Assembly: GCA_037783415.1 (NCBI GenBank)
Contig: JAZGTN010000052.1
Location: forward strand, 2,728,001 to 2,792,000
Direction: 5' to 3'
From: Leptasterias polaris
Taxonomy: Eukaryota; Echinodermata; Asteroidea; Forcipulatida; Asteriidae
DNA: 64,000 nt
Shown: positions 12,417 through 64,000 of the stretch, piece by piece
Numbering within the stretch: the first letter of the stretch is position 1
How the letters are laid out: each line of letters starts with the position of its first letter
Program-made: the position numbers and the translations under genes
Notes under the pieces: generated by a model
Told to the model about the DNA's origin: nothing
The model's database searches: none
Seen by the model: only the letters and a program-made list of their open reading frames with translations

Positions 12417-13439
12417 ATAAGGAGGCGGTTTAAATGGGACGAAGGAGGAGCCTTAGCTATTTTAATGAATATGCATTAGCCAGGGCTTGTTCGATGTTTA
12501 CGTTCGTCTTTTAATTTTTTTAACATGTGGTTTTTGAACGAGGTTACCGTCGTTCCTAAAATGGGTATATTTTTGTCCTAAAAATACGTTTTATGGGAAT
12601 ATTTTGAGCATTTGTCGTTTAAAAAAAAAAGCGCAATTTGAGGGGGATATGGAATCTAAAATATCATGAACGAGGATGTTTACGAACCTGTACGTCCTAG
12701 AACAGAGCTAAACTTTTTTTTTCAGTGGTAAATTTGTTCATGAATATGGCATTTTCTTGCATCTTTCTTTACTCAAATAGTCACTTTGTACGTAAATAGG
12801 ATCGTTAAGATTTCCTAATTGTCAAATTTTCAACTAAAAACTGGCACATTTGATCAAGATTCCGTTGGCCTAGCTACGTATGAGTACTACATGCAACCAG
12901 ACTGCATGCAACATGGTCACTAGACCCCATGCAGCCTTGTGTATTGTAATCTGACACCGCGTCTTCAAGATAAGAAGTCACCATCTTGCATGCTGAACGC
13001 ACGCTGTGTGTGCAGTGGAAATGAAGGGAACGCTATGGTGCGAAGACTGGTGGTGGGGAAGGCTTCGTGAAGAAAACAGGTGAAGAGCTAGAGACTCAAT
13101 CAATTCTTTCAGGTATTATTATTAATTCATTGTCAGTTATTTATTGAACAAACCGTATATGATTTTGACGGATTATTCTTTCATGTAAACTGACATTACA
13201 TTCAATAATAAATTACAATTCACCAATTATCATTCAGTTCATGATTAATATAAAACCATGGAGAAATTTGTTTTCTTATTTCTCCATGTTTAACTTAGTA
13301 AAAAATGAACCACCATTTGTGTGTGAAGGAACATGTAGGAAGAACAACATGTCTTTCAAATGAAAACAAACCGGACCTGATGTTGACTTTTTAAATCCAG
13401 TTTTTGTTTTTAGTGAATGAAGGAAAGAAAATACCCCAT

Positions 13440-14951
13440 CCGTATTTTCTTGCGGATAAGGCGCTCGGCGGACAAGACGCAGGACCCTAAAATGACCCCA
13501 AAAAATTTCAAACGTCAGCAGAAAAGGCGCACCGCCGCACAAGACGCATGTTTAACAGCACACAGAAGAACACCAGGCGCCACCCGGTGTCGGTACATTG
13601 ACACAAAGACGTCATTTTGTTGCCTTTTGGAGCGTTCACACTATTCGAAGCATGAATGAAACCGTAACCACATGGGCGTGTAGAGCCATGCAGAAAAGAC
13701 CAACGTAAATTGATACCGACCTTCGTCCATCCATTCAGCCAACGCTGTGCATTGTTAATAATATGAAGTCCGGCCCAATCAGCGGCCAGAAACAATGGTC
13801 CACGCACTGTCTGAAGATATTGCAACACGAACCCAGGCCCTCCTAGCATGAACATCCGACGTCCCACAATGAGGATCCTTGCTGATAAAGACAGGTTACC
13901 AGTCTAAGTCCCTCCGAGCCAGTAGATGTTGCGCCCTCTACCGGTGACTAATACCAAAACTAGCGTCGCCTTTATATATACCTTACGCAAATAATCCCCA
14001 CACCCGGGAAGACGTAACAAAATGTTTCATTATATATATTTGTTTAAGTTTTTGTAATGTGTTTCTTTTTGTATATAAAATTCTTTTCCATTATTTCAAA
14101 CCTTTAATTTGTTAATCTCGTTCATAAGATTTTGTTTTAAAGTTCTTTTTATTTATTTCAAACTTATAATCTCGTTCATAAGATATTTGTTTAAAACATC
14201 TATCCTCTTCTTAAATAATGTTAGTTTTGTTTTCAAGGGTCATTACCTTGTTTTCAAGGATAATTTTTTTTATTTGACTAAAAAGAGGCAATTAAAAAAT
14301 GAATATTTGAACGTTTAATGAAACAAACGAAAGTGCAATTCGTATAGGTTGGCCAACAAACATTGGTACTTAATTATCCCATCCTTAAATAGTACGTCAA
14401 GCCATAATAGTACGTCAAGCACACTTCGGAGATATTCTGTACAATAAAAACCCTCAAAGTTCACCACACAATAGAGGTTGGGTGAATGCCGTTTGTACAA
14501 CAGCATTGACAGTAAATCTGATTGCAGCATTTTCGGAACGAATACGCGGCCACACAGAAAAACGTTTGTACGACGCCGACGTCTGTTGGACCGAAAGTAC
14601 CAACACATTGCGGCATTGTTGGAATGAAAGCACGGTCATGGGGGATGAACAAGTTGCGGCATTGTTGGAATGAAAGGACAGTCTGGGGGATTGCGGCATG
14701 ATTGTTGAAACGAAAATACGGTCTCAGTGTCTGGATAGTTGAGCCTTGTTTGACGGCATTATTGAGTAAGGATTCTTCACACAAAGACCGTTGATTTGAA
14801 CTGGACAAAATAAAGGTATTATTTTACGCAGTGATCATCAAAAAAAAATCAATCGTCAGCAGACAAGGCGCATCGAAAGATAAGACGCACCGATATTTTT
14901 GGGGTCTAAAAAGTCAGATAAGACGCGTCTTGTCCGCAAGAAAATACGGTA
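13440..14951. mobile_element. Non-autonomous DNA transposon with terminal inverted repeats
   Basis: The ends match in inverted orientation: CCGTATTTTCTTGCGGA at 13440 and its complement ending at 14951. GC-rich motifs of the 'GGACAAGACGC' type follow inside both ends. The roughly 1.5-kb interior has only short open frames and a small array of the GCGGCATTGTTGGAATGAAAG unit near 14610-14700. No transposase is visible, so it would be mobilised in trans. A target duplication could not be fixed. Confidence 0.65.
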
Positions 14952-16050
14952 TATTTCTTTCCATTTTCATCATCTGATTGCACCGTTGCGGGGTGAAAAA
15001 CCAGGTGAAAACTCAAGTAGAGAAAAAAAAATACCTGGAAAACCCAGCAACTTAAATTTGAAATTAATTGACAATCTACGTGCATATGGCCTAGTTACAT
15101 TCTGGTTTTAAATTTTAACATTTTTAAGCAACTTTATCTAAATACTTACGCCTGACATTATATTTAATATAAAGCTCAAATAATAATGTAAATTGCACTT
15201 CTTCAAACACATTTTTATTTTTGACTTAATTAATTAAAAGGAGGACTCAGCAGTATTAAATGAAAGTAGGCCCTATGTTTAAAACAATTCATGGTCAAAA
15301 TAAACCAATGTGCTGATGGCTTCATGTTTTGATTACTGCAATGGAATGTGCATGCAAACCATAATGTCATCAGTACATTGATCTAAATAACTACAAAATA
15401 AGCCTGGTTAATACTTCACACGAAGGCAATTGTAAAGCGAACTATGACGCAAAAGCAAACAATCGGGCACGCGCTGTATATTTATTGTGACGCAAGGAAC
15501 TCCGCTTCCCTTTTGCAATTTTTGTGATGTATGAACCGGGCTTTGCTGAGTTTGCAGAAGCATTTTAAAATTACTGATTCATTTATTTATGTTTGTCTAT
15601 GATTATGAATTGCACAAATTAAGAAACTGTGATTCAGTAACTCGACAATACTTATTCTAGTCGTTGTGAAATCAGCGGTTAGTTTGATAGTATTTGAACC
15701 CACAACCTTGTGATTGCAAGTCCTGCAATCTAACCACTGGACCACGGTGACACAACATGAAAATTAAGAAAGAAAAATATAAGTGAAAAATCAAAGCAGA
15801 ATTTCAAACCTAAATTTAAAGGGCTGTGTTGTCTTGATCATAGTCTGCTTGTGGCTAGGCATGGAAGCATGAAATCACACTCAGTTATTTCAGACCACAT
15901 CACAAATCAAAGCTTTAAAGGGTGCCGCATTATCACATGTGCATGTGCAGTAGTTAGATGAGAGTTCAGAATTCAATGCCTGGCCACAGACTCGCTGTGA
16001 TCAAGACGACAGAGCCCTGTTAAATACTTGTCTGCAATTCCTATAATATT
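14952..16050. other. Intergenic, mostly featureless
   Basis: No coding frame or exon with family resemblance is seen. The only recognisable piece is a tRNA-like SINE head at 15676-15755. The rest is AT-rich with short ORFs only. Confidence 0.5.
15676..15755 (-). repeat. tRNA-like SINE head
   Basis: On the minus strand it reads GTCACCGTGGTCCAGTGG, then GGTTGTGGGTTCAAAT, matching tRNA A- and B-box spacing. The stems do not fold into a full cloverleaf, so a SINE or tRNA relic is likelier than a working tRNA gene. Confidence 0.4.
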
Positions 16051-16406
16051 AGGCCAAGTAAAAAAAAAATACCAGTTGATCGTCCCCGCCCGCATCCTTT
16101 TTTGAGGCTGCATCCTTTTTTTTATTTTCGATTTTTCCATAAAAAAAAAAAAAAAAAAAAAAATTGTTTGTATTTTTAATCCACCCTTGACATATATATT
16201 TAAATTTTTGATGTAAACTTACCTCATGCAACAAATAAATATAAAGAAAGTTAGCGGTGATTTCAAACTGAAGAATTGGTGGCCTGTTTCAATTGAAATA
16301 CTTGGCGGCCATCTTGGAAAAAAAATAATAAAAAATAAAAAGGCCCTCATCCTCCTCTTTTTGGAAAAATCAGGACGATCAACTGGTATTTTTTTTTATT
16401 TGGCCT
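16051..16406. mobile_element. Short inverted-repeat element (MITE-like)
   Basis: AGGCCAAGTAAAAAA at 16051, continuing to ACCAGTTGATCGTCC at 16085, is mirrored by the complement at 16373-16406. This gives about 34-bp terminal repeats around a 287-bp AT-rich core with a long A-run. It sits about 200 bp beyond the 3' end of the RAG1-like gene. Nothing shows it is an end of that locus. Confidence 0.75.
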
Positions 16407-16633
16407 TATGTACATTTTATTAAAAGTAGAAATTTACACATGTTTATTTACACACATATTGTACCATAATCTTAGTCGTATAAGCCGCGTAATACATTGA
16501 TTTTGACCCCCACAAAATTTGCGGCTCATATGCCAAAGATTAAGGTACAAATTTATTATTTACACATTAGAAAACTACCAGTTCTTTATTTATTGAAACT
16601 TGTGATAACTATGTGGAAATTAACAAAATAAAA

Positions 16634-19600
16634 TTATTTTGAAAAGGCAGCAGGTGGTGCATGGGCAGGGCTGGTCATGACCCAGTGAGTCCGGATGACA
16701 GACTGCAGAATATCCACCTCTTCATGCAGTCCTCGGACATCACGCCGGAGGGTGTTGAGATGAGCATGGACAGACTCCCCTCCTTGTTCGCCGTGGAATC
16801 CTAGACCAAAGTGCCACTGCCGCAGCCAGGAGATGACATGGTCTTCTAGTAGATGCATCTTCGGCGGCACACTCTCAGATGGAAAAGTGGCGCGGAAATA
16901 AGCCAGGTAGTTGTTGATATCCTGGCTTAATGCATCTACAGCTGGGCCATCCAGGATCGATGAGGTGTTGTACGTCCGGTGACAAGTGCCAAACAGATGG
17001 AATAGTTTGGCATACTTTGCAGCGACTGTTCTTGCTTCACCCACCAGGGAAGGACAAAGATCTCGGGTTTTGTTGACTACTGCATCGGTGAGGAGCTTGA
17101 TGTTTTCTTCCTGCATAGAAAAATAGGTTAAATATTTTTAATCTAAAATACTTGATATGTTTTACTTGTTTTAAGTCGCAGCGACAATTTCTTTAAAAAT
17201 TATTTTGTAAGTGGAACACAATTGCCCAAAAAAGTATTTAAGAAATAAAAAATAGTTAGTTGATTTTACATTTAATGGTAGATCAAAAAAAAAAAAAAAT
17301 TCCCTTGTATTAATATTTTTTGAGTTGGATAAGTAACAACTTAGAAAGATGACTGTTTCATACCTTGCAGCATTTGTGGACATGATTGCCAACAAAACTC
17401 TTCCCATGGTAGGCCTGTCGCTGCACCCGGAAATCCTGGAGAATGATGTCTAGTTGCCCAGCTAGAGGACCTTGGCCTGGCTTAAGTGCTGCCTTTTCAC
17501 GAAGGGCCTTTGCTTCCGCCAACTAAAAATACATAACATAGTCAAATTAGTTAATAGAATAGCTTGTGCTCATAATAATAAAGGTTTGACAGATTTACAT
17601 TATTTTTTTTTCAAGCTTACCAGATGTTCTTGTTGCTTCTGCAGTGCAGTCGTTTCATCGATGTAAGATTGAATATCTGCACTTCCCTCCACAGATGACA
17701 TGATGGTGTCCGCAAGTTCTTCTTCTTTGTGACGGAATTCCTCATCCAAGGCCTCGGCCTGCAGATCTAATTGCCGGGCCCTCTTCAACACGGAGACGAC
17801 ACTCTTGAAGCAGGAGCCAAGTACTGGATTTTCTTCGGTTGGATGTTCATCTTGTAAGGCCAACACAGCCGCCACTTGCATGTCAAGGTCATGACATGCA
17901 CCTTCAAAGCTGTTGAAATGCTTGAGGTATAACCCGAGACTGATGTGAAGTCCGGGTGGGCAAACCTGTCATAAATAAGGTAAATGCAATATTATCTCAT
18001 TTTCACCTTCTTTTGCATTTATTTACTCACTATTTTGCTTTGTTTTTTATTATCACTAAATTTAAATATAATTGGCAAAATATTTACCTGTGTCAGCGGA
18101 ATCCTAAACATTGGCTCGCTGATCACGTTGTTGAAGAGTTTAGCCTTAGAGAGTTTACTGCCATCATCGGTGAATCTGCGGAGGTCATCGTCCAGGGTCT
18201 GTAGAGTCCTCTGCCTCCATGGTGACCTTTCCTCCCGGGGCTTCCGCATGTCATCTTTGGTAATGTTGCAATAAAGACAACAGTGTCTTCCTGTTCAATA
18301 TAAAAAAATAACAGTTGCAACACATGTCTATAGTTTGCCTTTTTTGCACGTAAAAAAACCCCTCAAATTTACCTGAAGCCCCGGTTATTCCATACACTCG
18401 GCAGAGATACTCATAGTCCCCGAACATGAAGAGTCTGATGTTATGACTCTTCCAAGTGCAGGACTGCAGCTCAGCAACTTGTTGGCGGAAGCGCAGGAGA
18501 CCAGTTTTCAAATTGTTGCTGGTATCACCTGCTGCGAAAGCACAAGCAACTACGGTGTGACGAAGGGCATTGGGACGTCCAACGTTGGCGATCTGAAACA
18601 TCTGTTTGAACGTCCCGCCACCCTTGTCGCCTCCGATCTTGACCCAAACCTCGTCCTGTGGGATGTTGCCCTCGTGCCAAGTTAGCTCGTCGGTCCTGTT
18701 GAAGAGAATAAGAGCAAATCATAATTTTAAGCATTTTATTCAGTTGTGTTCTCAAAAAGAAAATAATGAAATAATTAAACATTCCAAATTTTCTTACTTC
18801 TCGTAGGCATCTAGTTGCTGTCTAACTTTGGCGACAAGGGACTTCACAGCTACGCAGGGGGCTGGCTTGATGGTAACTCCTCCATTGACGTCGTCAGGGA
18901 ATGAAAAGGGGAGGTTCTCGGCAATGATGTTATCCGCCACGACGTCTTGTTGTTGTTGACGCATGGCGTTTTCGCCTTCAGTTAGGATGTTATACTCCCT
19001 CAACCATCTTTTCAGTTCCCTGGTGCGCTTCCAAGAGACTCCCAGGTGAGCCTTCGCAGCAAGGAGCTGCATGTTGGGGATCTTGATGGTGTTCAGTTTT
19101 AACTCCCGCAACATGCCCTGCAGATCTTTTCGCAGGTGGCATAACTTCATCTCATCTTTATGCTGCTCCTGTTTAGCATCCTTGCTGAGAAGGTTACGGG
19201 TCTTGTCTAAAATCTCTGAGCGCCGTCGAATGGTGAAGGAGGAGGCAACCTCACTGCTTTTCCGAGGAGTGGGGACACAAAGTGTCGTCAGAGGCTAGTT
19301 ATGAGGGAAAAAATTAAAGATACAAAATAATCAGCAGCTCTAATTTTTATGTGAAATTCTTTGCGAGGAAGGAAAATGAGGAAAAATGAAGAAAGCAAAT
19401 TTATAAATAAATTAAATGCACAGATTAAGCATTAACATTTTGAACAATTAAACTCACTTGACCACCGGTGCTGTACTTTGTTGTTAACCCGTCTGCAGAT
19501 TGGGCGAGCTTCGACTTCAGGATGTGAGCTCCGAGAGCCTCCATCTGGGGGGTTAACGGCGCAGTCAGGGGACGCAGCAACATCTGGGTGACCTCACTTG

Positions 19601-20375
19601 GAGTTTGACTTGATGGAATAATTTTATCTGCAAATGAAACTGTTGGTGGGTTAGTGAAGGAACAAACATGGGATGAAATATCACCCACAGTTACGTGGAC
19701 CTTGCATGCTGTGCACTTCATAGCTGTACTCAAAAATAAACCAGCAAAATATCCTCGGGGGGCAGTGATGCTCTTGAAGTGCACTTGTACTTGACAGACT
19801 GGACAGGGGGCGCTAGGTTCTCTGAAAGATTCATAGTGGGCTGCCAAGCACTCGGAACAAAATAGATGCATGCAAGGTGTCTCCAGGGCATTGTCAAGTA
19901 AACGGGTGCAAAGTTTACATTCTATGGAGGCTGTACTTGACAATGGCTCAAAATTGGGAATCTTATCCCTGGAGACTGTGGGTGAGGGGGGGAGACTACT
20001 GAAGTGCTCTACACATGCTGGGGTAATCCTAGGCCTGCCACTCCCTGGGTGTTTCTGCTTCTTTTTTCGACCAGCTTTTAGCCGTTGGACAGAATTTGTA
20101 CACACAGTACAGACACCTGTTCTTGGGTGGGGTGGCCAGGCGGGGGCAGCTTTCCTGGATGAAAGAAAAAGACAAGTATAACAAGAGTGACACATGTATG
20201 GGGGGTGAGTGCTTTCGTCATCATGGGAGACGTCAACCTGAAATGTGCTAACAATTTTGTCTATGTATTTGGCACAACTCTTAGCACATTTCTCAGCCTT
20301 CGTCTCAGATGATGACAAGCAACGCCCCCCACACAGTCTACATAACCTTTTCAGAGTTTTCTTGTGAACATCCAT
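16634..20375 (-). CDS. RAG1-like protein (RING, zinc finger, DDE recombinase-like core), intact
   Basis: Seven coding exons: 20375-19458, 19294-18798, 18695-18373, 18290-18088, 17965-17621, 17522-17364 and 17110-16634. They have GT/AG borders, unbroken phase and a total of 973 residues. Residues 1-70 hold paired cysteines and a DESTHPPYMCHSC block like the RAG1 N-terminal region. A C3HC4 RING spans about 153-194 and a zinc finger about 221-238. The core has VWVKIGGD (D495) and FGDYEYLC (D565). C584 and C587 lie exactly 19 and 22 residues after D565, as C727/C730 follow D708 in RAG1. H901-x4-H906 then matches the RAG1 zinc histidines, and GEQGGES (E923/E927) matches the glutamate region. Zinc-bound, chromatin-type DNA cleavage or strand transfer is inferred. 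An AATAAA lies at 16590-16585; a 5' non-coding exon may end at 20464. It could be an N-RAG-TP-type transposon gene or a domesticated copy. Confidence 0.9.
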
Positions 20376-20381
20376 GTTGAA

Positions 20382-20480
20382 TCTGTATTTGAAAAATAAA
20401 TGTAAATAAATTATTTTATGATTTAATAGTTTAAATAATATAAAATCAAAACTTTGAAAATACCTCTTGCATCTTCTTTC
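20382..20480 (-). other. Upstream splice junction of the RAG1-like transcript
   Basis: The start ATG lies 7 bases inside an exon whose acceptor (TTTTTCAAATACAG) ends at 20383. A matching donor (GCAAGAG then GTATTT) lies at 20464-20462, only about 80 bases upstream. This suggests a 5' non-coding exon. Such a short intron is close to the minimum, so the call is tentative. Confidence 0.4.
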
Positions 20481-21846
20481 TGTTTACTTTTATTGTGATC
20501 AAATGTTAAATAAGGTTTCCATTTTTAAAAAGGTGTTCTATTACAAAAATGGACAATTAAAGTTTCTCTTTGATTTTGTAGTGACCTTGTAATTTAAATG
20601 ACACTGTAAACTAGTCTGATGATACATAGACTTTTAACTAAAATATATACATTTTTTTTAATAAAAAGGGTAGGCCTAGCCTGATTGATTTGAGTAAGTC
20701 TGGAGTGTTTATATATCATGGGGTTGTTATAAAAGCAGTTTGAATATTTTTATTTGTTTATTTATTATTTTTTAATCATCAATAATATTAACACGATTAT
20801 CATAAATTTGTTATAGGGTTGCCTTTAAATTTATAAAAATAGGCCTGATTTATGGCATAAGTACTTTCATAAGATTTGCCAGGAAAAATTATATGGCAAA
20901 TGGTTAAGCATTAAGCAGCTACAGACCCCTTTTAAATTGAGCCTATCATTTGTTTATTTTGGCAGAACGCTACGAGTGAAGATTTAGCGACCCAATCAAC
21001 ACGCACCCGAAACGCCCGACAAACGCCTCGTTTTCACGGTACTCCGTTGTGGCTTTGTCCGTGTGAGCGCGTTTCTCGTGAAATGTTACGGGTGTCAAAT
21101 TACAAATTGCCCCATTGACCTTGACGAGAATTACACACTGTACCGTTAAAAAAAGTTTAGCTCTGAAGTGAAAACCAACGTCATTTGTGAAATAATCTGA
21201 AAACTAAAGTTAAATTAATGGGATTTTCGTAGATTTGCGCAGAATTAAACAAGGTATGTTTTATTTTTGTTGATTTTTCAAAGATATTTTGGGGGGGCTT
21301 TTAGGATAAAGTAAACAAAAATTTGGTTTATTTACCGTGAAGTGCGTCTCGAACATCAATCGGCAGCGACAGATCTAAATATAAATAGACGGTGACGCTT
21401 AGCCTAGAATGATGATTGGCTAATGGGAATCAGTTTGGATGTTAAATATTCATGAGTCTATTTTTTCCCGCCGGTTTTAACATCCCTTTCGTTGATTAGT
21501 CCGTTTGAAAAGTTTTTCAAATTTCGGAGACCGCAAACACGACTTGACCGCGCGCGGGCGCCCTGTTATCTCGCGATGTTGACATAAATCGCGCGTTGTT
21601 TACAAAAGGAGCTAACGCGCAAGGTCAGACTAAATGCCGCACGACGAATTCCCATAGGGCATACGTGTAATTAAACACTTCACACGTTTAAACACCCCCA
21701 CGTGACGTGCTCTCCACCAATCAGAATGGATAAACTGTCCAAGGTATTTATGAATAATATTTTTCTGTGTCATTTTACTCATTCGTCCTATATAAAGTAC
21801 ATCAGACCATTACAGTTGCCCGTATTTTGCTCCGTGTGAAATGGCC
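20481..21846. other. Intergenic region between RAG1-like and caveolin genes
   Basis: The first 450 bp are AT-rich and featureless. From about 20960 to 21750 the sequence is richer in GC and CpG (for example CCGCGCGCGGGCGCCC near 21549). A donor-like AAGGTATGTTT lies on the plus strand at about 21250. It could hold promoters for both the leftward RAG1-like gene and a rightward transcript; no core promoter motif can be assigned. Confidence 0.3.
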
Positions 21847-22402
21847 TTAAAGGGTGTGTACACGTTGGTAATTGCCAAAGACCAGTATCCACACTTGATG
21901 TGACCTAACATAATACATGAAATAATAAACATGTGAAAGTTTAAGCTCAATTGGTCTTCGGAGTCACGAGAAAACAGGGACACCCCCGTGTTAACTTATT
22001 TTTAAAACATCGGATTTTATCCTGCAGGATAAAGACTACATTGTTTTACCCATTTCATAAAGACTATGGCATTTCAAGGAAAACTATTTCATACCATGGC
22101 CATCTTTATACCATGTAATGTATATTTGGTTTGCGGCATGTGTAGGCCTATATCTACTTGCTAGGTAGATTTTGTTCTCTGAGAACTTGTCTTGCTATTT
22201 ATTCTACTGCAGTAGAATAAAAAGCAAGACAAGTTCTCAAAGAACAAAATCTACCTAGCAAGTATACACACGGTCTTACCACAAACCAAATATACATTGA
22301 TACCTCACCATGCAATGCCTCAAATCCCATATACCATGTAAGTTGTGCAAATCTGTGACCATTTGTATTTTCAATCTTACCAATGTTGTACACACCCTTT
22401 AA
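21847..22402. mobile_element. TTAA-bounded inverted-repeat element with large fold-back core
   Basis: It starts TTAAAGGGTGTGTACACG and ends with the complementary GTACACACCCTTTAA. TTAA at both ends is the probable target duplication, as in piggyBac and Kolobok elements. The centre (about 22157-22262) is a near-perfect palindrome around CTGCAG, and the arms extend outward with more mismatches to about 22090-22330. The internal phrase GCTCAATTGGTC is shared with the other TTAA elements in the window. Confidence 0.8.
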
Positions 22403-22871
22403 GAAACCAGAGAAAGGAAAACAAAATGAAAAGACGATGGGATAGGAAAGAACTAAAGCCTTCAAGTCATGACTCTTTACAGTGCTTTTATACTGCGCTG
22501 TTTCTGTTTGCCTACGTACTTTTTGATGCAAAGTATTAAAAAGTGAAAGTCCACCACAGCAAATAAGCACGGTCATCAACAGTTTCTACAACTTTTGTTA
22601 CTAGCCTCTTTTTAGAGGCGGTTGTAAAGGGGGATTTATTGAAGAAATTAGTGTACTTTTGAAAATTGTCTGTCTTATATGGCCACCATAATAAAATGGT
22701 GCTCGATGTGCGTTCTTGTGCAAGATTGCGTATTGAGACCTTTTGCATCCTTTGTATATTATGATGGGCGGGGACCTTGAGACGGTGAGTGGAGACTCGA
22801 TTGGGTCAGGAATTAGAAATACCTCTGAGCAGTAGTAGTTACCTAGCGGCTCAACTACATCAGTTTACTTT

Positions 22872-25800
22872 ATGGGGGACACACTGTCCAAACAACCGAG
22901 TGCCAGTGCAACTCCTAGTGCCGCACTCAGTATTATATCAAGCCCCAGTGAGTCACCTAGCCGCCAAGCCAGCATCCGGACGATCCACAGTGCCACACCG
23001 GTGCATAGCCGCCAAGCCAGCATCCGGTCGAACCACGGTAACACACCGGTCCATAGCCGCCAAGCCAGCATCCGATCGAGCAACGGTGCCACAACAATTC
23101 CTCGTGCAACACCAAGCATTCAAATCGAAATGGCCAACAACGGTAAGCTTGGATTGTATGAAATAAAGTTTGAAATGGTAGGCCTACGACAACTCTCCGT
23201 GGAAACTAAACATTGAAGTTATATAGGGCTTACCGGCGGTAGAAAACCTACTCTCAGACAGCTGAGCTGCAAATGCGTATTGGAGTCTAGTACCAAACCA
23301 TACCAAACCCTACAAACTACCACTCACAAAAACGCCAATTTATATTTTGTCCGAACACGTTTTTAATCAGACAAGGAATTAAATATTGTTTAAGGGTTAC
23401 AAAATACCCAGACTGGTTGATTATCTCTTTCTTTTGAACTCACCAAGTGTACACAACAGTCGTTTCACCCCTACATGTGTTGTTGCACAATTTGGACGAC
23501 AAGTATAATGGAAAGTGCCATCACAAACATTGGTATGCAAAAAGAGAAGGGCAAAAAACAGAAAGGCATAATTATGATAACATAATTTTTCCGTAGCCGG
23601 TAAGGACTGTATAGGCATACAGATTAACGAAGAGGGCAAGACACCGGTTGAATTTGAGAAATATTGAACATGAGAGGCGTACTTTAATTTTTTACAAGAT
23701 TAACTTTTTAGTGGGCACAATTAAAACTGTAATTTCCGATAATTTGCATTTAATCTCTTAAACAAGCCCATTTTCAGTGCTCTTGTTGTACCATAAACCT
23801 GATTTGCAAAGTTCTTTCCTCAACACAAGAACTGGATTCACTAGTATAGTGTGTGTCAGCCATTGACTTATACTAACACACTGTGTTACCTGAGGTGTAC
23901 AATGGAGTTGGTCAAGCGTGCTACTCTTATCACCATTGTGGCTCTATTCAATTGCATAGGTCAAAACCTATAGAAAATGCAGTGTCCACTGTACCTTGAA
24001 ATACAATGAACCAAATCTACATGCAGTACCATGGAAGTCAACTCGATATCTTGGAGCACGTGTTGCCTTCTATGACAACCAGCGTTTCCACTTCTAAGGA
24101 AATTTCCTTATTTTAAGGAAATTTTAACGTCCTAAGGAAATTTCTAAGGAAACAAAAAATCTAAGGAGATTTAAGGAAATTTCAAAAATCTAAGGAAATT
24201 TTAAGGAAATTTCACCATTTTAAGAAAAATTTAAAGAAATTTGAGAATAAAAGCAAATCATACAAAAAAACCCCAATAAAACATGAAAACTGGCCATTTT
24301 TAGGGTTCATATCAGCGAAAAATGGCGCAGTGAGATCGATCACGGCTGGGAACGAGGTTGGTTGCTTATAGTGCGTACCATAGAATTAGAACCCGGTCGG
24401 TGCGTACTAAAAGCATCGCTCCACTGCTGCGCCTGGCGCCCCCAAGTAATTAGTCTGGTTTCGATTGCATCGTAGGCTGAGCCCAGGCCTGATATGCGGC
24501 GGGGTCGCGCATCCACACTACTACCGACCACATGATGACTGTGTGTGTGGTTTGCACGTCGTAGATTTTGCATACTGTACATTGTACATGTTGTGTTGTT
24601 GGTTCATTGCTGTTTGACTAAAATTGGGACTGGTATACTATGACAATTTTCATCAATTACCATCAATAGTTTAAGTTATTTTATCTAAGGAAATTTTAAG
24701 GAAATCCTCCCAAAACTCTAAGGAAATTTCTTTTAATCTAAGGAAAAAATTATGTCAATCTAAGGAAATTCAATTTTGGGAAGTGGAAGCACTGATGACA
24801 ACTCAACAGCTACATTTCAACTAAAGCTACTTGTGGCCGGAGATGTAAATCCTAATCCTGGACCTATGACGCAGGATTGCTCTGAAATTAATCAAACTAC
24901 CAAGCTCGATCCTGGAAATCAGCGAATACTTTACGACAAGAATTTCCTTGTTCAACTCAACCACTCGGGTACCAATCCACACTTACACAACAGATTACCA
25001 CCTGATGTCTGGAATAACATTATAGATCTAGGAATATCCATAAAACATCGATCCCACCGTGGTAAGAGAGCTGGAAAGAGAAAACAGCGGCCAATCCAGG
25101 TCCTCATTTCCTCGCGAGTTTCACATTCCTACATGTATAAACATAGCTCTCCTGGAATCAACCACTGCAATTTAAAGCCAATTCGTAGGTACAACCCCAA
25201 TATTCAATCTGGCAAAACTATGTGTCTATGGAATGCCCACTCTGTAAGAAACAAGGCACTGATCACATGTGACTACATGATTGAACATGACATTGATGTT
25301 TTAATTATCACCGAATCTTGGCTGAAAGCTGATGATGAAGTCATCATGGCAGAATGTACTCCACCTGGATATGCGTTACTGAATTCCCCCCGTATGACTG
25401 GAATGGGGGTGGTATCGCATCCATTTTCAAATCCACGCTTAAACTATTGACAAAGAAGGTTACTCAAGACTACACAACATTTGAGCACAGTCATATTGTT
25501 AATGCTTCGTCAACACTGCATATTTTCACTGTCTATCGACCACCACCCTCACAAGCCAATGGGTTCACATTCCCTGCCTTCTTGGAAGAATTTGACAACT
25601 TTTTGACCGAAATATCCCTACTACCTGGGAAACTGCTCCTATTAGGAGACTTCAACATCCATGTTGACACACCTTCAAAGACAGATGTAGCCGCTTTTCT
25701 ACAATTGGTGTCTGCAGCTAATCTGCAGCAGCATGTCACTGGACCAACTCATGAATTAGGGCACACTCTAGACTTAGTGTTTACAAGATTCGCTGAGACA

Positions 25801-28800
25801 CTAATTGACAGCTGCACTGTTCATAACGCTCTTATGTCAGATCACTCCGTCATCACTCTAGTGCTGAACATGCCTAAACCAACTCAAGAGCATGTGACGT
25901 TGTCGTCAAGGAACTATCGAGCAATCGACAGAGAGAGCTTCGTAATTTCACTTACAGAGGTAGCTCAATCTTTCTGCTACCACGGTGACTCAAATGCTGC
26001 ATTTGAATGGTACAATACGAAGATGAAAGAACTTCTTGATTCAGTTGCCCCCGTGTCTCAGAGATCCTGTTCAGTTCGTAGAAAGATGCCATGGTACAGC
26101 AAAGAAATACACATAGCCCGCCGTATGAAACGTAGGGCGGAAAGCAAATGGAGAAAATCTCACTCCTTTGATGACAGACAGGTATTTCTATCAGAAAAGC
26201 GGAAATGTTCCAATCTGATATGCCGCAGCAAGATCAGCTACTTTAAGAATAAGCTGTCTTCGTGTGACAGTAAGGAATTGTACCGGACATTAGATCTTTT
26301 GTTAAATCGTAATCGTCCGTCATTTCCAGTTCATGATTGTGCTAAAACCCTCTCAAATCAATTTTCCACGTACTTCGCTGACAAGATCACTACAATCCGA
26401 CATAAACTAGAATTCATGCATTCTAATAACAAGTTTCCTGATTCAACGTCGATTAACTTTTCACCACTGTCATGCTTCGCTCCAGCTACTGAAGAGGAAG
26501 TGCTGAACGTTATCAAACGATCGCCTAACAAATCAAGTATCTTGGACCCGATTCCAACGTGGCTCCTTAAGGAGAAGGAGAATATTATATGTCTGCTTCC
26601 TGTTTTTACTGAAATAATAAACTCATCCTTGTCAACAGGCACCTTCCCATCCGCTGCAAGATGTGCAATCATTAGACCAATCCTCAAGAAAGCATCTTTA
26701 GACAAAAATCATCTCAATAACTACAGGCCAGTGTCAAATCTTACGTTCCTTGGTAAGATCCTGGAAAAAATCATCTGTTCCAGATTGACCGGCCACATGA
26801 ACACAAATAACCTGACAGATCCTTACCAGTCGGCATATAAGTCAAATCACAGTACAGAAACTGCGCTGATCATAGTGAAGAACGAAATAATGGCTGCCCT
26901 TGACTCGAACCAAGTAGTTTTGCTTGTCTTATTGGATCTGTCAGCAGCATTCGACACCATCGATCGCCAGATTCTGTTATCACGCCTGTCACAACGAGTC
27001 GGTGTTCGCGATTTAGCTCTTCAGTGGTTTGAATCCTACCTCGCTGATTGGTCCACCAGAGTTGATGTAGAGGGGGTGTTGTCAATCCCTTCACTGGTCA
27101 CAACTGGACTACCACAAGGATCAGTGTTCGGACCACTTGGGTACACCATCTACACTTTACCTGTCGGTGACATAGCACGCCATCATCATGTGTCATACCA
27201 CACCTATGCAGATGACACGCAGCTGTATGTCACATTTGATCCCAAAACTCCTGGAAACCAAGAGGCGGCAATGAAAACATTATCATCATGTATATCTGAT
27301 ATCCAATCTTGGATGACATTTAACAAACTCAAACTTAATGAAGAAAAAACAGAATTTCTCATTATAGGCTCACAATGGAACCTGAAGCGCATTCGTAGTG
27401 AAAGCTTGACTGTTGGTAGTGCATCAATAACACCCTCTGAGTCAGCAAGAAACCTTGGGGCTTACTTCGACTCCAATATGTCTATGTCTCCACATGTGAA
27501 TCATGTTTGTAACAGTTTACGGTTTCATCTCAAAAGCATATCTCGAATCAGAAAATTCATCGATCAAAACACTTGTCACCACGCTGTACGTAGCTTAGTA
27601 CTTTCACGGTTAGACTACTGCAACGGACTCCTAACATCAGTTCCAGCAGCACAATTGAAACGGCTACAGAGCCTACAAAATTGGGCTGCTCGCATTATTT
27701 TTCAAGCAGATCGGCATCATGACCCTATTCCCCTCATGAAATCCCTTCACTGGTTACCTGTTCAAAGAAGAATTCGTTTCAAGATTATTCTACTTGTGTT
27801 TAAAACATTCATTAATCAGTCACCAGATTACATTAATAACTGTCTTCAGCGTCATCGACCATCTCGTCATAATCTCCGCTCCAATTCGGATCCTTTCAGG
27901 CTAACAATCCCAAGAACTCACAACCGTGCCGGAGACAGAACATTCACAGTCTTCGCTGCTAAAGAATGGAACAATATTCCCACCTACATTAAATCTGCCA
28001 GCTCAATTGTACATTTCAAGAAATTACTCAAGACTTACCTGTTCCATTAATAATTATTGTATTATTAATTTTATTCTTTCTCATTAACATTGTAAGCGCT
28101 GTGATTTTGTTTTACAAAGTAGAGCGTATTTAAATGCCCGGTATTATTATTATTATTATTTACTGGTTTTTTACGAGATAATCTGACGTGTTTATGGGTG
28201 TAAAAACAAAAACATTGTCTGCGTGTAAATGGAAAAACGTTTTTAAAAACGTTGAAGTTTTCATAAGTTATCATAGAGTGTAACATTTTACTCATAATCT
28301 CAAAAGTCAAGAATTTAGGGGAGGGGTCACTCAGGGAGGGGGTGGGGAGGAGGAGATGAGGATATCAATATGGGGTGGGGCATGTGCCCCTTTATGATAC
28401 ACCACTGCATGTAGAAAGTTGTTTTCATTTTTTTTTTTTGGAGTAGCGACTTATAACATACAAGGATTGGCGCATTTGGACTTTACTTTTCACGGGAGGC
28501 AATGTGTTTCATCCCTCCTATTACTAAGGCAACAGCATTGGCAGGATGCACCAACTTCATAATGCAATCTGAGCAAAAATGATCTCTGTGGCATCAACGA
28601 CACCAGAGGAGACATCGGGGCGTACCGTGGGTAGAGCAAGAATGTGGGGTGCGGCAAAAACCATTGTCTAAATTCGCACGTCGTTTCATACAGCTGCATT
28701 ACAAAAAACACACAAATACTTTATTTCATTATGATCATTTTATCAGCACATGTAGTTGAGGTCAAACACATAAGTAAATACGGTTATTTGTTCTTACTGG

Positions 28801-31800: not shown

Positions 31801-32423
31801 CACGAAATACAAGCAACACGAAATATGCTATAGAAGGAACTCAAATGAGTGCAGAGGGACACGGTGGAGCGGACCTACTGACCACGAGGAGAGGGGCCTA
31901 CCGACCAGTTGAGGGGCGGGGGGTGACATACTGACAGTGGGGGAGGTGACCAACTGACGGGGGCGGGGGGGGGGGGGGGAGGAGTGATGGTATCATGCCG
32001 TAACCCCAAAAAGTTGTTAAATAACAGTGAATTTAGAGTAAAAAAGAACAATATTGATGAGACCAGAGGTAGATTTAGTTTGATGGTAAAAAATAATTTC
32101 ACTCTTTTTGGTCTACTCCTCAGGTGGTAGTCTACAGCATCTTCACCGTCATCATAGGAATCTTCTTGTCCTTCGTCTGGGCGATTGTCTTCGGTCTACT
32201 CAATGTGATTTCGATATTCGTCTTGCAACCGGCATCCAAGGTGTTCTTCATCCTCCTGCGCGTTGCAGGGATGATCTTCAAGGCGCTGATCGGTTCGTTC
32301 TGCGACCCGTGTTACCGCTCTGCTGCCCTCGTTTTATCACGTATCAATGTGGCTGCCCTGACCGCTACGGAGGCAAAGCCAGTCGGCATGAGAATCTACA
32401 ACTCAAATCTTCAAATCGTCTAA
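22872..32423 (+). CDS. Caveolin family protein A, long N-terminal region
   Basis: Four exons: 22872-23142, 30730-30836, 31405-31497 and 32124-32423, encoding 256 residues with phases 1, 0 and 0. Caveolins are hairpin membrane proteins that coat caveolae. The last exon encodes the hydrophobic hairpin (IGIFLSFVWAIVFGLL) followed by FCDPCYRSAALVLSRI, the C-terminal caveolin pattern. Exon 3 has YDDVFAAP, matching the family motif FEDVIAEP. Exon 1 is unusual: a Ser/Thr-rich stretch with three copies of SRQASIR in about 16-residue repeats, a pattern typical of basophilic kinase or 14-3-3 sites. Intron 1 (7.6 kb) contains a LINE. Exon 1 is joined on phase and position only, so it could belong to another transcript. 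The hairpin exon is secure. Confidence 0.8.
22960..23095 (+). repeat. Coding minisatellite, 48-51 bp unit, three copies
   Basis: CGCCAAGCCAGCATCCGG recurs at about 22963, 23011 and 23059 inside the first exon of caveolin A. The repeats stay in frame and encode the three SRQASIR motifs. Confidence 0.8.
24094..24775. repeat. Degenerate array of AAGGAAATTT units flanking a 440-bp insert
   Basis: About a dozen copies of CTAAGGAAATTT-like units occur in two blocks, 24094-24245 and 24683-24775. A unique-looking segment separates them. Bases 24095-24110 are a perfect 16-bp palindrome (TAAGGAAATTTCCTTA). The right block runs straight into the LINE. Confidence 0.65.
24776..28162 (+). mobile_element. 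CR1/L2-type LINE, 5'-truncated, with 2A-like motif and one frameshift
   Basis: The 5' frame (about 24776-25450) has GDVNPNPGP, which resembles 2A ribosome-skipping motifs. It is followed by the start of an apurinic endonuclease domain (NAHSVRNK, then ITESWL). The frame shifts at a G-run (25405-25409), and the 25354-28050 frame continues with LLLGDFNIHVD and SDHSVITL. The reverse transcriptase then follows (NYRPVSNL, LDLSAAFDTID, GLPQGSVFGP, YADDTQLY), and a C-terminal region with RLDYCNGLL and LHWLPVQRRI. The 3' end has a GCGCTGTGATTTTG-type stem and an (ATT)n tail near 28141-28162. No start ATG is visible at the 5' end (the frame opens at TTG after an in-frame stop), so the copy is truncated. 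It lies in caveolin A intron 1. Confidence 0.92.
28163..30216. other. Caveolin A intron 1, right part
   Basis: No exon is recognised. It contains a degraded family-B SINE at about 29120-29525 and otherwise AT-rich sequence with short frames. Confidence 0.5.
29120..29525 (-). repeat. tRNA-derived SINE, family B (rearranged copy)
   Basis: It carries the family-B body (AGGAAACCTGTAAACAGG, GGTTCTTTTACGTGCACTAC). The reversed tRNA-Leu-like head is near 29440-29525 (GGGACACGAACTCATACTC ... CCACGACACGCC). A roughly 90-bp block containing the 'gaccgggac' phrase is duplicated within it, making it longer than other copies. Confidence 0.65.
30217..30445. mobile_element. TTAA-bounded short inverted-repeat element
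   Basis: TTAAAGGGACACTTTGCCTT at the left end matches, inverted, AAGGCAACGTGTCCCTTAA at the right end. It is 229 bp long with TTAA at both borders and no coding content. It lies in caveolin A intron 1, near exon 2. Confidence 0.75.
31210..31270 (+). repeat. 20-bp tandem repeat
   Basis: The unit GTGCCACCGAAAGGTGAT occurs about three times in caveolin A intron 2. Confidence 0.7.
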
Positions 32424-37224: not shown

Positions 37225-37679
37225 AAACCGTGCATAGTCGAGGATTACAATAAATACATGGGGGCACGGATCTGGCAGGACAATTATGCACGTACTATAC
37301 TCATACCCACAAAACACTCAAATGGTGGAAACGTGTATTTATGACAATCCTAGACATTATGTTTGCTTAATGCTAATGTCGTATACAACAGCATCCATAC
37401 AAACAAGAGCTTGTCTACTTTGGATTTTCGGGTCAAGGTGATAGAGGCACTTATTTCAAGCTTGGAGTACAACCCATTGACCATGCCAGTCAAGTGTCAA
37501 GTGCTTCAAACGCCCTTTCAACTCAGCACTTTCCTGGTCCGAATGTTGGCGGGAAGAAACGTGACTGTGTTGTATGCAGTTCGACCTCTAATCGGAAACA
37601 AACTCGCATGATTTGTAAGCAGTGTATCAAGCCAATGTGTGTTATACCATGCTTTGAGAATTTTCACACCAAGCGATAA
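37225..37679 (+). pseudogene. piggyBac-type transposase remnant, C-terminal end
   Basis: Three frames together show the end of a piggyBac-like transposase: KPCIVEDYNKYMG, then KTLKWWKRVFMTILDIMF, then NSIHTNKSLSTLDFR. Last comes a cysteine-rich C-terminal domain (CVVC, MICKQC, CVIPCFENFHTKR) that binds terminal repeats in this family. At least two frameshifts and an in-frame stop break it, and the catalytic part is missing, so it is not functional. Confidence 0.8.
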
Positions 37680-39722: not shown

Positions 39723-42700
39723 ATACACCTGACTATGGTCAACAAGGTGCCTCGTACACAAATACCTTGCCTGAGGGACGCGACGACTATACGGCCCAAC
39801 CACCGTTCACTTTTCCGTCGCGGGCCCGCTCGGAAGGTGACTTGGCACAGAATATGGCCCTCATCAACGGCGGTTCTGCTCATCAGTCATTAAATACTGT
39901 TCACCAGAAGGAAAACACTGCGGGCGAAGACATCTACCGAATCAGCCCCAACTTAAACGTTAGAAATGATTAATTTGCACATGTAATGTTTGAAAGTGGG
40001 AAGTCCAAAATCCCCCAATTGCTCAAGACTTCAACGGTATATTCAAAAAGTGTTTTGCAAAGTTTTTTGTGTTGCATCTTTTAAAGGCACTGGACACGTT
40101 TGGTAATTGTCAAAGACCAGTATTCTCACTTGGTGTATCCCAACATATATGCATAAAATAACAAACCTGTGAAAATTTGGGCTCAATTGGTCATCGAATT
40201 TGCAAGAGAATAATGAAAGAAAAAAACACCCTTGCTGCATTACTTTGTGTGCTGAGCATAATAAAAGGCTTCAGCTGAAGTCTTTTATTATTTTAGTGAG
40301 AAATTATACCCCTTTCTCAAAAACCACGTTACTTCAGACGGGGCCGTTTCTCACAATGTTTTATACTATCAACAGCTCTCCATTGTTCGTTACCAAGTAA
40401 TTTTTTATGCTAACAATTATTTTGAGTAGTTACCAATAGTGTCCAGTGCCTTTAAGCTTCAACTATATGAGCTGCAACTTAACTGAATCGTATTTGGTTT
40501 CACATGGCAAACAGTAGATTACATTGGGGGGGGGGGGGGGGGGAGCATAAACTATTGTTATTATTATGATATATTTCTAGTAATGAAACTGGAGGATGCC
40601 TCATAAGTGAACTTGATCACTGTAGCTTGCACGCCTAATAGGAAACCCGTAAACAATAGTGCTTGCTATGAGAACCCCAAAAATCGGAGTATAACCCCTA
40701 CTCTTATAAGTGTTCTGGGTTCTTTTATTTGCATTACCAATCCTATAGAACACGGGAAATACGGGTTAACGTCTCATCCAAAGGACAAGGCAAGTAAGGT
40801 AAAGCCTCTTACTGAAGGACACAAGTGCCATAATCGGGACTTGAACCCACACTCTGCTGAGTAGAAAAACAAAAACTCGAGTGCGGGGCTCTTAATCGCT
40901 CGGCCACGACACGCCACGGAAACACAAAATGATTTTCATTTATTTTGACGCCCGTTTATTCCAAAGCGTTAGCTCCTAACCACTCTCAATAAATTGTTTA
41001 CGCATTATGTCAGATCCAAACTGTTTCAATATCTCTATCGAATGCCCATAACACCTCGTGTTCTATCACTATTATTTTACAGTAATGTTAAAATGTAAAC
41101 AGGGTACAAATGGCGTTGTTGTATGGGGAATCCTACGGAGCTCTGGAAGTGCCATCCAACACATTTACACATGGTTTGTACCGCAAGTTTACTACTCATA
41201 GTTGTTTCTTATTGTTCACATCATGCACAACTTCAAACATCACTTGTCATCCAACTTGTTGAGATCCGGAGATAATTATCGCTTTATGATTGACGACACC
41301 ATAAACCTGAGATGACGACATCCCGAGACAATAACCTCGCGATGTCTATATCCTTGAAAGTAGGATGGCGTCTTCCAGATATATTTTATCGGAGGAGGAT
41401 GGCATCCTGAGAGTCAGGATGGCGTCTTCAAGAGATGGTTTAGTATCTCTGGCGACACTCCATCGCCCTACGAGATAATGAAGACGACATTCTATCTTCA
41501 GGATGTCATCTTCGAGTTCATCCCAAGATGGATTATCTTAAAGTTGACATATTTTACTTTCATGCATGATGTCGACGTCTTACAGTAATCTCAGGATCTC
41601 AATGAGTCGGATGGCACTTTAAGAGCTCCGTAGAGTCCTGTCTGCATTATGGTATTTATATATATATTTTTTTAGGCCGACTACGATGAGGTGTTCAAGG
41701 AACCGAGTTCTCATAAACGGTACATCTCTATAGCGTGGTTAAACCGCCATATCTTTACAAAGACACAGGTAATGTAACAAAATCTTTTTTACACGGGTTT
41801 CATAACTTATCCCCCCCGTTTTTCCTCTAAAGTACTGGGGCATTAACCATTACTCAATTACTCATTAACCAGTTATTTGTTATCAGACATCCACATTTTG
41901 CATGGTAGGCCCACAGGAAAATCACAGCCAGAACCCCTAAAAAAAATTTAAACAAAATATATAAAAAAATATTTAAAAAAATATAAAAAAATCACTTTGT
42001 CTGTGTGAGACTAATAGTAATACGAATGTATTTAAAAATGTGGATTTTCAAATTGCTTTTACTATTATGTTTTGTTTGAAATAATGGGTTGAACATAGAA
42101 AATTTGACGAGAGCGGGACTTCCACCTGCGACCTCAAGATTAACGTGCTGGTGCTCTACCAACTGAGTTATATAGCCCTGTGTTGGCGGTCACATTATTT
42201 TGCCAATCAATATCTTTGTTCGGGGGTGCCAGTCAGAAGCCATACAACGCCACACCCAAGCTTACGATACAACCTGGGAAGTGGCAGCAGATGGATCAAC
42301 CTTTAAGAAGATACAACTTTTTATTTCAAATATCAAGCAATAACCCAAAAGGGAAACCGACTGGGTATACTTCTAAAAAACTTTGGGCTAAACAAAGAAA
42401 AGTTGACTTGATGTTTGTTGATGTTTTGTTTTGCACAGATTACTGTATACATCGTCTTCAGTGTTTGTTGATGTTTTGTTTTTGCACAGATCACTGTATA
42501 CATCGTCTTCAGCGTCCTCTTTGGAGTCTTACTCTCCTTCCTCTGGGGGATCTTCTTCGCTATCCTCAACTTCTTCACCGTATATATCATGCAGCCTATG
42601 TTGAAATGGATATTCGTTTGGTTGCGCTCTATTGCAATGATAAACAAAGCGATTATCCGATCGTGCCTTGATCCGTTTTACGAAGCATTTGGACTCGTGT

Positions 42701-42792
42701 TTTCCCGGATTAGGGGAAGTTTCTCTTTAAACGCTTCTGGTTTCTTACCCATCGTAGCAAAGAATGAATGCACTCCGATCCAAGAAATTTAA
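39723..42792 (+). CDS. Caveolin family protein B (first exon not found)
   Basis: Exons 39723-39958, 41676-41768 and 42490-42792 join in phase and end at TAA 42790-42792, giving about 209 residues. The 93-bp middle exon has YDEVFKEP, the caveolin FEDVIAEP-type motif. The last exon encodes the hairpin (VLLSFLWGIFFAILNFF) and SCLDPFYEAFGLVFSRIRG, a typical caveolin end. Exon 2 ends with GEDIYRISP, matching DIY-x-x-x-P at the same point in paralogues A and C. The first exon should end in phase 1 but no candidate was found upstream. Intron 3 contains a SINE-like composite repeat and a 50-bp tandem duplication of the final acceptor. Likely role: caveola or membrane-curvature scaffold, as for caveolins generally. 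Confidence 0.85.
40081..40455. mobile_element. TTAA-bounded inverted-repeat element
   Basis: TTAAAGGCACTGGACAC at 40081 and GTGTCCAGTGCCTTTAA ending at 40455 are perfect inverted repeats. TTTGGTAA and TTACCAA mirror each other just inside. Interior phrases (AACAAACCTGTGAAAATTT, GCTCAATTGGTCATCG) occur in the elements at 43495 and 49123. This is the cleanest copy of the family. It lies in caveolin B intron 2. Confidence 0.88.
40520..40546. repeat. G-run
   Basis: About 19 consecutive G residues in caveolin B intron 2. Similar runs occur at 31966, 38082, 38618, 38867, 39257, 52820 and 52885 on this strand, and C-runs at 37792, 45492 and 61262. Confidence 0.8.
40570..40918 (-). repeat. tRNA-derived SINE, family B
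   Basis: On the minus strand the head reads GGCGTGTCGTGGCCGAGCG and later GAGTGTGGGTTCAAGTCCC, very like a tRNA-Leu with its long variable region. The body follows toward 40570. It is the copy with the best-preserved tRNA-like head. Confidence 0.8.
41118..41645. mobile_element. Inverted-repeat DNA element in caveolin B intron 2
   Basis: CCTACGGAGCTCTGGAAGTG near 41131 pairs with the reversed GCACTTTAAGAGCTCCGTAG near 41614. This gives terminal repeats of about 27 bp followed by GCCATCC / GGATGGC. The interior repeats AGGATGGCGTCTTC-like phrases. It ends about 30 bp before the polypyrimidine tract of exon 3. Confidence 0.65.
42055..42400 (-). repeat. tRNA-like composite repeat, family C
   Basis: On the minus strand a tRNA-like head (AACTCAGTTGGTAGAGCACC, GGTCGCAGGTGGAAGTCCC) is joined to the conserved blocks CAATATCTTTGTTCGGGG, CAGTCAGAAGCCAT and AAGGGAAACCGACTGGGTAT. 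The same order occurs twice at 62815-63245. Confidence 0.7.
42418..42515 (+). repeat. Tandem duplication of the caveolin B final 3' splice site
   Basis: A roughly 50-bp unit (TTGTTGATGTTTTG, then TTGCACAGAT, then TACATCGTCTTCAG) is present twice. The downstream copy starts the real exon at 42490. The upstream acceptor would start at 42439 and meets an in-frame TGA at 42469-42471 after 10 codons. Confidence 0.9.
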
Positions 42793-63444: not shown

Positions 63445-64000
63445 CTGTTTAGAAAAACAAATTGTTGGAAAGTTCACTTTACTCAATATTAGTACAGTTG
63501 TAGTGAAATGTCCATTTATTGGAAAATCATTTTATTAAAGCCTTCCTACTGTTAGTGTCTGACCACTCATCATCAGGTTTGTACACAGCCTGCAATATCA
63601 TGCGGTGAATGCGATACACAGTACACAGTCAACCCTCCTACTGTCTGACCTTTCAATATCATCTACTTTGGTTTTGAATGATAAACTATGCTCAGCCTGA
63701 GTATGATATCATGTCGGTAATGCCTACTACCAGAGCTGTGTATTGAGAGAGTTGCAACAACTTGCGATAACAAGCCATTTTTGGGTCCAAAATCCGCATG
63801 GGTGCCAGACTAAACTGCACATTGGGTTCATCAATCAATCAATCAATCAATCAAAATAATTTATATAGCGCCGGTATCCATAAGTATGTTCAAAGGCGCT
63901 TTGACAAAGAATCTATTACATTTTGACTGAAAATGGCGTCCAGCATGAGCAACCAAATGACAAAAGAAAACTGGTCCATCCATGACGCAAATCTCTCAAT
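63445..64000. other. DNAI2 upstream intron with LINE 3' tail
   Basis: No DNAI2 exon is recognised here. Bases 63832-63910 on the minus strand read AAAGCGCCTTTGAACATAC, GGCGCTATATAAATT, then a (TTGA)n tail. This is another CR1/L2-type LINE or LINE-dependent SINE 3' end. Confidence 0.55.

Follow-up and report, generated by a model that had tools for sequence, protein, structure and literature searches.

A probable Chapaev-type transposase gene with the module order of RAG1 in the sea star Leptasterias polaris

RAG1 is the enzyme by which vertebrates cut and rejoin antibody genes, and published views differ on where its RING and N-terminal zinc domain came from. A stretch of 64,000 nucleotides from the sea star Leptasterias polaris (contig JAZGTN010000052.1; hereafter, the window) holds one gene in which RAG1-type zinc modules precede a candidate DDE core. 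Is this gene a RAG1, or a relative built on the same plan? We think it probable that it encodes the transposase of a Chapaev-group cut-and-paste DNA transposon, from the subgroup whose DDE core is preceded by a Chapa zinc domain plus RING.

An intact seven-exon gene and its relatives

The coding span lies on the minus strand at 16634..20375 (ATG, 20375-20373; stop, 16636-16634; 973 amino acids). The first-pass annotation, which gave no strand, had proposed seven exons forming 973 codons plus a stop without an internal stop, and its coordinates proved exact. Exon 1 (19458..20375; 918 nt; residues 1-306) carries the Chapa/RAG1-type zinc domain, the RING, and a zinc finger. It is followed by exon 2 (18798..19294; 497 nt), exon 3 with both candidate catalytic aspartates (18373..18695; 323 nt), exon 4 with a C-x2-C motif (18088..18290; 203 nt), exon 5 (17621..17965; 345 nt), exon 6 (17364..17522; 159 nt), and exon 7, which holds H-x4-H, the candidate catalytic glutamate, and the stop (16634..17110; 477 nt). 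The exons, all on the minus strand, sum to 2,922 nt, the sole stop is the last codon, and all six introns are GT...AG. The start methionine agrees with those of a protein from Antedon (MDDHLKILDSLCRICG) and of homolog P0013 (MDVHCNNLKRLCRLC).

A protein search that scored the 7994 candidates sharing the most words with the query matched the joined product to 20 proteins at an E value of ≤0.001, and because of these matches the seven-exon frame is, judged by sequence, not a product of chance. The top relative was Patiria miniata LOC119723080 (60% identity over 90% of the query), followed by Acanthaster planci LOC110988954 (66% over 71%) and a protein of Antedon mediterranea (42% over 99%); the remainder came from Holothuria, Diadema, sea urchins, Ptychodera, Branchiostoma, and Hydra, with three further proteins. 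The Patiria relative aligns to residues from all seven exons; the Acanthaster relative also reaches every exon, but only 29 residues of exon 1. Identities per 20 residues at exon junctions 1 to 6 were 10, 14, 18, 19, 10, and 19 for Patiria and 13, 13, 19, 18, 8, and 18 for Acanthaster, making the fifth junction the weakest conserved. In a midpoint-rooted tree of 20 rows, from which the truncated sequence P0021 was excluded and in which two long branches were flagged, the window protein was sister to Patiria plus Acanthaster (support, 100/100). Antedon mediterranea has two Chapaev-type proteins that are only distantly alike (P0004 and P0020; 42% and 31% identical to the window protein) and so represent two old lineages; both are encoded on contigs of one length (38,962,182), perhaps the same chromosome.

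RAG1-type zinc modules on a Chapaev-type core

The N-terminal third of the protein contains everything that had been claimed for it: the DESTHPPYMCHSC block, a C3HC4 RING at about residues 152-198, and a later zinc site formed by C221, C224, and H236/C238. Residues 1-110 (20046..20375, minus strand, as are all protein features below) match RAG1_imp_bd (PF12560; Pfam E value, 2e-6; 28.1 bits; cut-off, 23.3). We equate this match with the Chapa-type zinc domain because Kapitonov and Koonin (2015; PMC4411706) describe Chapa as the N-terminal part of RAG1. The RING (residues 152-198; 19782..19922) matches Pfam zf-C3HC4 at 153-194 (E value, 1.3e-6). In the zinc finger 3' of it (residues 221-238; 19662..19715), C221, C224, and H236 are conserved in the homologs that reach this far. 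A Chapa domain is what is expected of a Chapaev, with a RING after it in two subgroups, and an N-terminal zinc domain of RAG1 type with a RING is equally what is expected of RAG1 and RAG1L. A structure model of the N-terminal part returned RING-type fold matches only, with no fold match for the Chapa part, whose likeness to RAG1 thus comes from its sequence.

It is the core that places the protein. Residues 356-550 match DUF1280 (PF06918; E value, 1.1e-13; 51.8 bits; cut-off, 25), a family that corresponds to Chapaev (PMC3985635), as expected of a Chapaev core, and the protein gave no Pfam match to the RAG1-family core PF12940 at an E value of ≤5. By sequence family, then, the window protein is a member of Chapaev and not of RAG1. 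The candidate catalytic residues are D495 (18626..18628; 19 of 21 rows), D565 (18416..18418; 20 of 21), and E927 (16775..16777; all 20 rows with letters there). Between the second aspartate and the glutamate lie C584-x2-C587 (18268..18279; 21 of 21) and H901-x4-H906 (16838..16855; all 20 rows with letters), resembling the RAG1 zinc ligands C727/C730 and H937/H942, respectively; this is the DDE triad with C(2)C and H(3-4)H expected of Chapaev, as far as the candidate residues go. The first aspartate was not aligned in the two Hydra isoforms, P0017 and P0019. E923 (16787..16789) is conserved as well as E927 (20 of 20 rows with letters); we prefer E927 as the candidate because a profile alignment, at a sub-threshold score of -2.5, places it over RAG1 E962.

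In mouse RAG1, the catalytic residues are D600, D708, and E962, and zinc is held by C727/C730 and H937/H942 (PMC4914335). Local spacings in the window protein and RAG1 are nearly equal (D-C, 19 and 19; C-C, 3 and 3; H-H, 5 and 5; H-E, 21 and 20), whereas the wider ones differ (D-D, 70 versus 108; C-H, 314 versus 207). The predicted core fold of the Patiria ortholog resembles RAG1 and BbRAGL, as expected of a RAG1-type core, and the model part corresponding to residues 375-973 of the window protein (16637..19090, over four introns) aligns with RAG1 459-1007. The structure prediction that had been proposed as a check thus gave, on the ortholog, a RAG1-like core. Of the first-pass description of a RAG1-like gene with a DDE-like core, the module order, the candidate D/D/E residues, and a RAG1-like predicted fold (in the Patiria model) hold; the core itself is DUF1280/Chapaev, without PF12940.

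By analogy, the protein most likely works like a RAG1/Transib-type transposase. The core would dimerise and bind terminal inverted repeats via its DDBD-like helices, and D495, D565, and E927, acting through a pair of metal ions, would cleave the element's ends and transfer them to target DNA, much as in RAG1/Transib. A structural zinc bound by C584/C587 and H901/H906 would anchor the insertion to the catalytic fold. The RING and the zinc domain at the N terminus may be regulatory, serving nuclear import or DNA contacts and ubiquitin ligation, as proposed for RAG1.

Possible transposon ends, rival readings, and neighbors

An exact 18-nt inverted repeat, CAGAGCTAAACTTTTTTT, brackets the gene, with a tentative left arm at 12703..12720 (plus strand; 5'-CA) and a tentative right arm at 21148..21165 (minus strand; TG-3'), 8,463 bp end to end. 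It ends in CA..TG, the pattern given for this clade of transposons. None of 200 dinucleotide shuffles contained an equally long match of like complexity (longest, 16), in a control made after the repeat was picked. The repeat, which ends in a T run, differed from other CA-starting pairs only in being perfect, and similarity past 18 nt is weak: equal scores came from 25 of 2000 shuffles and from 98 of the 2000 genomic stretches compared. We therefore treat it as no more than a candidate for the transposon ends. A repeat search of 14500-24500 returned nested short elements only. Pairs of 14-mers with up to 3 mismatches exceeded simple shuffles when flanked by a target-site duplication (TSD) of 3 bp (63 versus 34.8; maximum, 50) or 4 bp (18 versus 8.6; maximum, 12), but the top pairs listed were mostly AT-rich and were disbelieved. 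Just downstream of the gene lie two small elements resembling miniature inverted-repeat transposable elements, at 16048-16409 and 15815-16023. One has perfect arms of 25 nt at 16061/16397 and an additional match of 21 nt, and the other has 65-nt arms that are 74% alike. A spacerless palindrome at 22155-22264 (two 55-nt arms, 96% complementary) sits inside an inverted pair at 22117-22298.

Three other readings fare poorly. Exon 1 alone carries the whole N-terminal part, and one intron (19457-19295) lies between it and the exons of the core, as one would see if these were two adjacent genes or had been joined in this species only. However, at least four homologs, P0004 (Antedon), P0007 (Diadema), P0011 (Ptychodera), and P0013, unite Chapa-type cysteines, RING ligands, and the full D-D-E set within one protein. 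Hydra P0017 has the zinc domain and RING without the first aspartate, and the other 15 of the 20 homologs, many of which are short models, lack either the zinc domain or the RING in the recovered sequence. Trees built separately for the N-terminal part and for the core, as the first-pass annotation had advised, used 8 of 21 rows each and were in no supported conflict, with long branches flagged in the N-terminal tree. By these homologs and trees, the joining is old in the family and did not arise by accident in this genome; the homologous sequences largely refute a chance fusion or one confined to this lineage, which we consider very improbable. Equally far-fetched is a true RAG1-like gene of the Transib lineage (RAG1L/ProtoRAG), as in amphioxus or sea urchins. 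Its N-terminal domain and RING would be like those here, and the predicted core fold resembles RAG1 and BbRAGL, but DUF1280 stands in place of PF12940, a core-only profile matched no RAG1 or Transib chain at an E value of ≤10, and the closest kin are 20 DUF1280-type proteins rather than RAG1L; membership was rejected on this core sequence. Nor did 20 open reading frames (ORFs) of the window (at least 90 amino acids, one of 66) include a Pfam match to a RAG2-like kelch protein, a scan that may have passed over short exons. A young pseudogene or a silenced fossil copy would suit the repeat-rich surroundings, with their long interspersed nuclear element (LINE), inverted-repeat elements, and piggyBac-like exon, but is quite improbable given 973 codons without a stop or frameshift, six proper introns, and conserved zinc and candidate catalytic residues.

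A more serious rival, though still unlikely, is domestication: the Chapaev transposase would have become a single-copy host gene under selection in sea stars, and its transposon ends would have been lost or have decayed. The intact 973-codon frame over seven exons, the lack of a clear TSD, the lack of a second copy within the 64-kb window (tblastn), and a sister grouping with one Patiria and one Acanthaster relative, as vertical descent predicts, all speak for it. Against it stand the 18-nt exact inverted repeat on both sides of the gene, the complete motif set needed for catalysis, and the absence of Asterias rubens from the 20 matches though the species is in the database (7994 best word-sharing candidates scored). 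Moreover, the Antedon relative and the gene for dynein intermediate chain DNAI2, a neighbor in the window, are on different contigs judged by their lengths (38,962,182 and 41,379,608, respectively), so there is no old linkage there; in Ptychodera, the DNAI2 gene is, by the same measure, likewise on another contig than the Chapaev-type relative. Among the best 120 of 1485 matches in a DNAI2 protein search, neither Patiria nor Acanthaster had a row of its own, and a caveolin search gave Asterias rubens and one further protein only. It is important to note that several observations count against a Chapaev transposase acting as we propose. The TSD of Chapaev is 4 bp, and the candidate repeat is flanked by AA only, with no 4-bp TSD; CA-starting pairs with a 2- to 5-bp TSD showed no excess over dinucleotide shuffles in 12 TSD/length settings (for instance, 1 observed versus 1.8 expected for 18-mers with a TSD of 2). 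The structure model of the core is one of the Patiria ortholog rather than of the window protein itself and was built with 20 sequences (predicted local distance difference test, 75.2; predicted template modeling score, 0.62). The failure of the core-only profile to match RAG1 or Transib belongs here too; it matched four unrelated chains, namely, prefoldin 4 (twice), a coat protein, and PspA. Finally, the Patiria and Acanthaster relatives appear once each, which fits a host gene too. In a rather unlikely extension of domestication, sea stars would have kept, as a single host gene, a Chapaev transposase that has the full RAG1 architecture, a RAG1-type recombinase domesticated independently of that of vertebrates from a sister lineage retaining Chapa, RING, and core within one protein. 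If so, the RAG1 plan would be older than the Transib-Chapaev split and would have been recruited more than once.

Elsewhere in the window, a long open LINE-type frame on the plus strand (25339-28047; 903 amino acids) encodes an endonuclease and a reverse transcriptase. Three caveolin exons follow in a row on the plus strand (32097-32420, 42472-42789, and 48174-48533); in the first, 86 of 107 residues match Asterias rubens caveolin-1-like, compared with 38 of 80 and 41 of 99 in the other two. Exons for an axonemal/ciliary dynein intermediate chain of DNAI2 type occupy about 52940-63531 on the minus strand (86% to Amphiura filiformis, among the matches listed). Also on the plus strand are an organic anion transporter exon at 801-1226 (OATP; E value, 2.4e-22) and a piggyBac-like frame with a transposase-type zinc finger at 37377-37676 (zf-Tnp_2; E value, 9.5e-7).

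RAG1, its relatives, and the Chapaev transposases

Two views of the origin of RAG1 bear on this gene. In one, Transib fused with the Aplysia N-RAG-TP element (the "Guardian-of-the-Genome" paper, PMC8355894); in the other, the ancestor of Transib and Chapaev already had all parts (Kapitonov and Koonin 2015). Our results favor the latter because an intact echinoderm gene has all the parts, its core is predicted to be RAG1-like end to end, and relatives of the same architecture range from crinoid to hemichordate, with Hydra in part. The window gene also offers a protein for an in vitro test of that view. The combination of Chapa, RING, and core is already known for Chapaevs, and what is gained is a good intact specimen of the complete RAG1 plan with structural support, in which the predicted fold ties Chapaev to RAG1 where sequence cannot. 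The papers listed in searches of the literature, with subscription journals and preprints outside it, included no Chapaev structure model and no report of the sea star gene. Thus, we regard the gene as a useful living cousin of RAG1 and not as a new gene type.

Vertebrate RAG1 shares with the window protein the order of N-terminal zinc domain, RING, zinc finger, and DDBD-preR-RNH-CTD-like core, as well as the D/D/E and ZnC2/ZnH2 ligands at near-equal local spacing. It differs in the sequence family of its core and in the two wider spacings, no RAG2 partner was seen beside the window gene among the 20 ORFs scanned, and the nonamer-binding domain falls outside the aligned range, whose best row starts at RAG1 459. 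RAGL/ProtoRAG/TransibSU transposons likewise have a core of another family, and those ORFs included no RAG2L gene. Canonical Transib transposase (HzTransib) is described in PMC4411706 as a core without other identifiable domains. Aplysia N-RAG-TP, like the window gene as a possible mobile element, places RAG1 N-terminal-like sequence within such an element, but it consists wholly of that sequence according to PMC8355894, whereas the window gene adds a complete DDE core. The closest likeness is to the Chapa + RING subgroups of Chapaev. Compared by published description rather than by Repbase sequences, nothing examined separates the window protein from these subgroups, with which it shares a Chapa-type zinc domain, a RING, a DUF1280 core, and the DDE, C2C, and H4H motifs, as set out by Kapitonov and Koonin (2015; PMC4411706) and, for DUF1280, PMC3985635.
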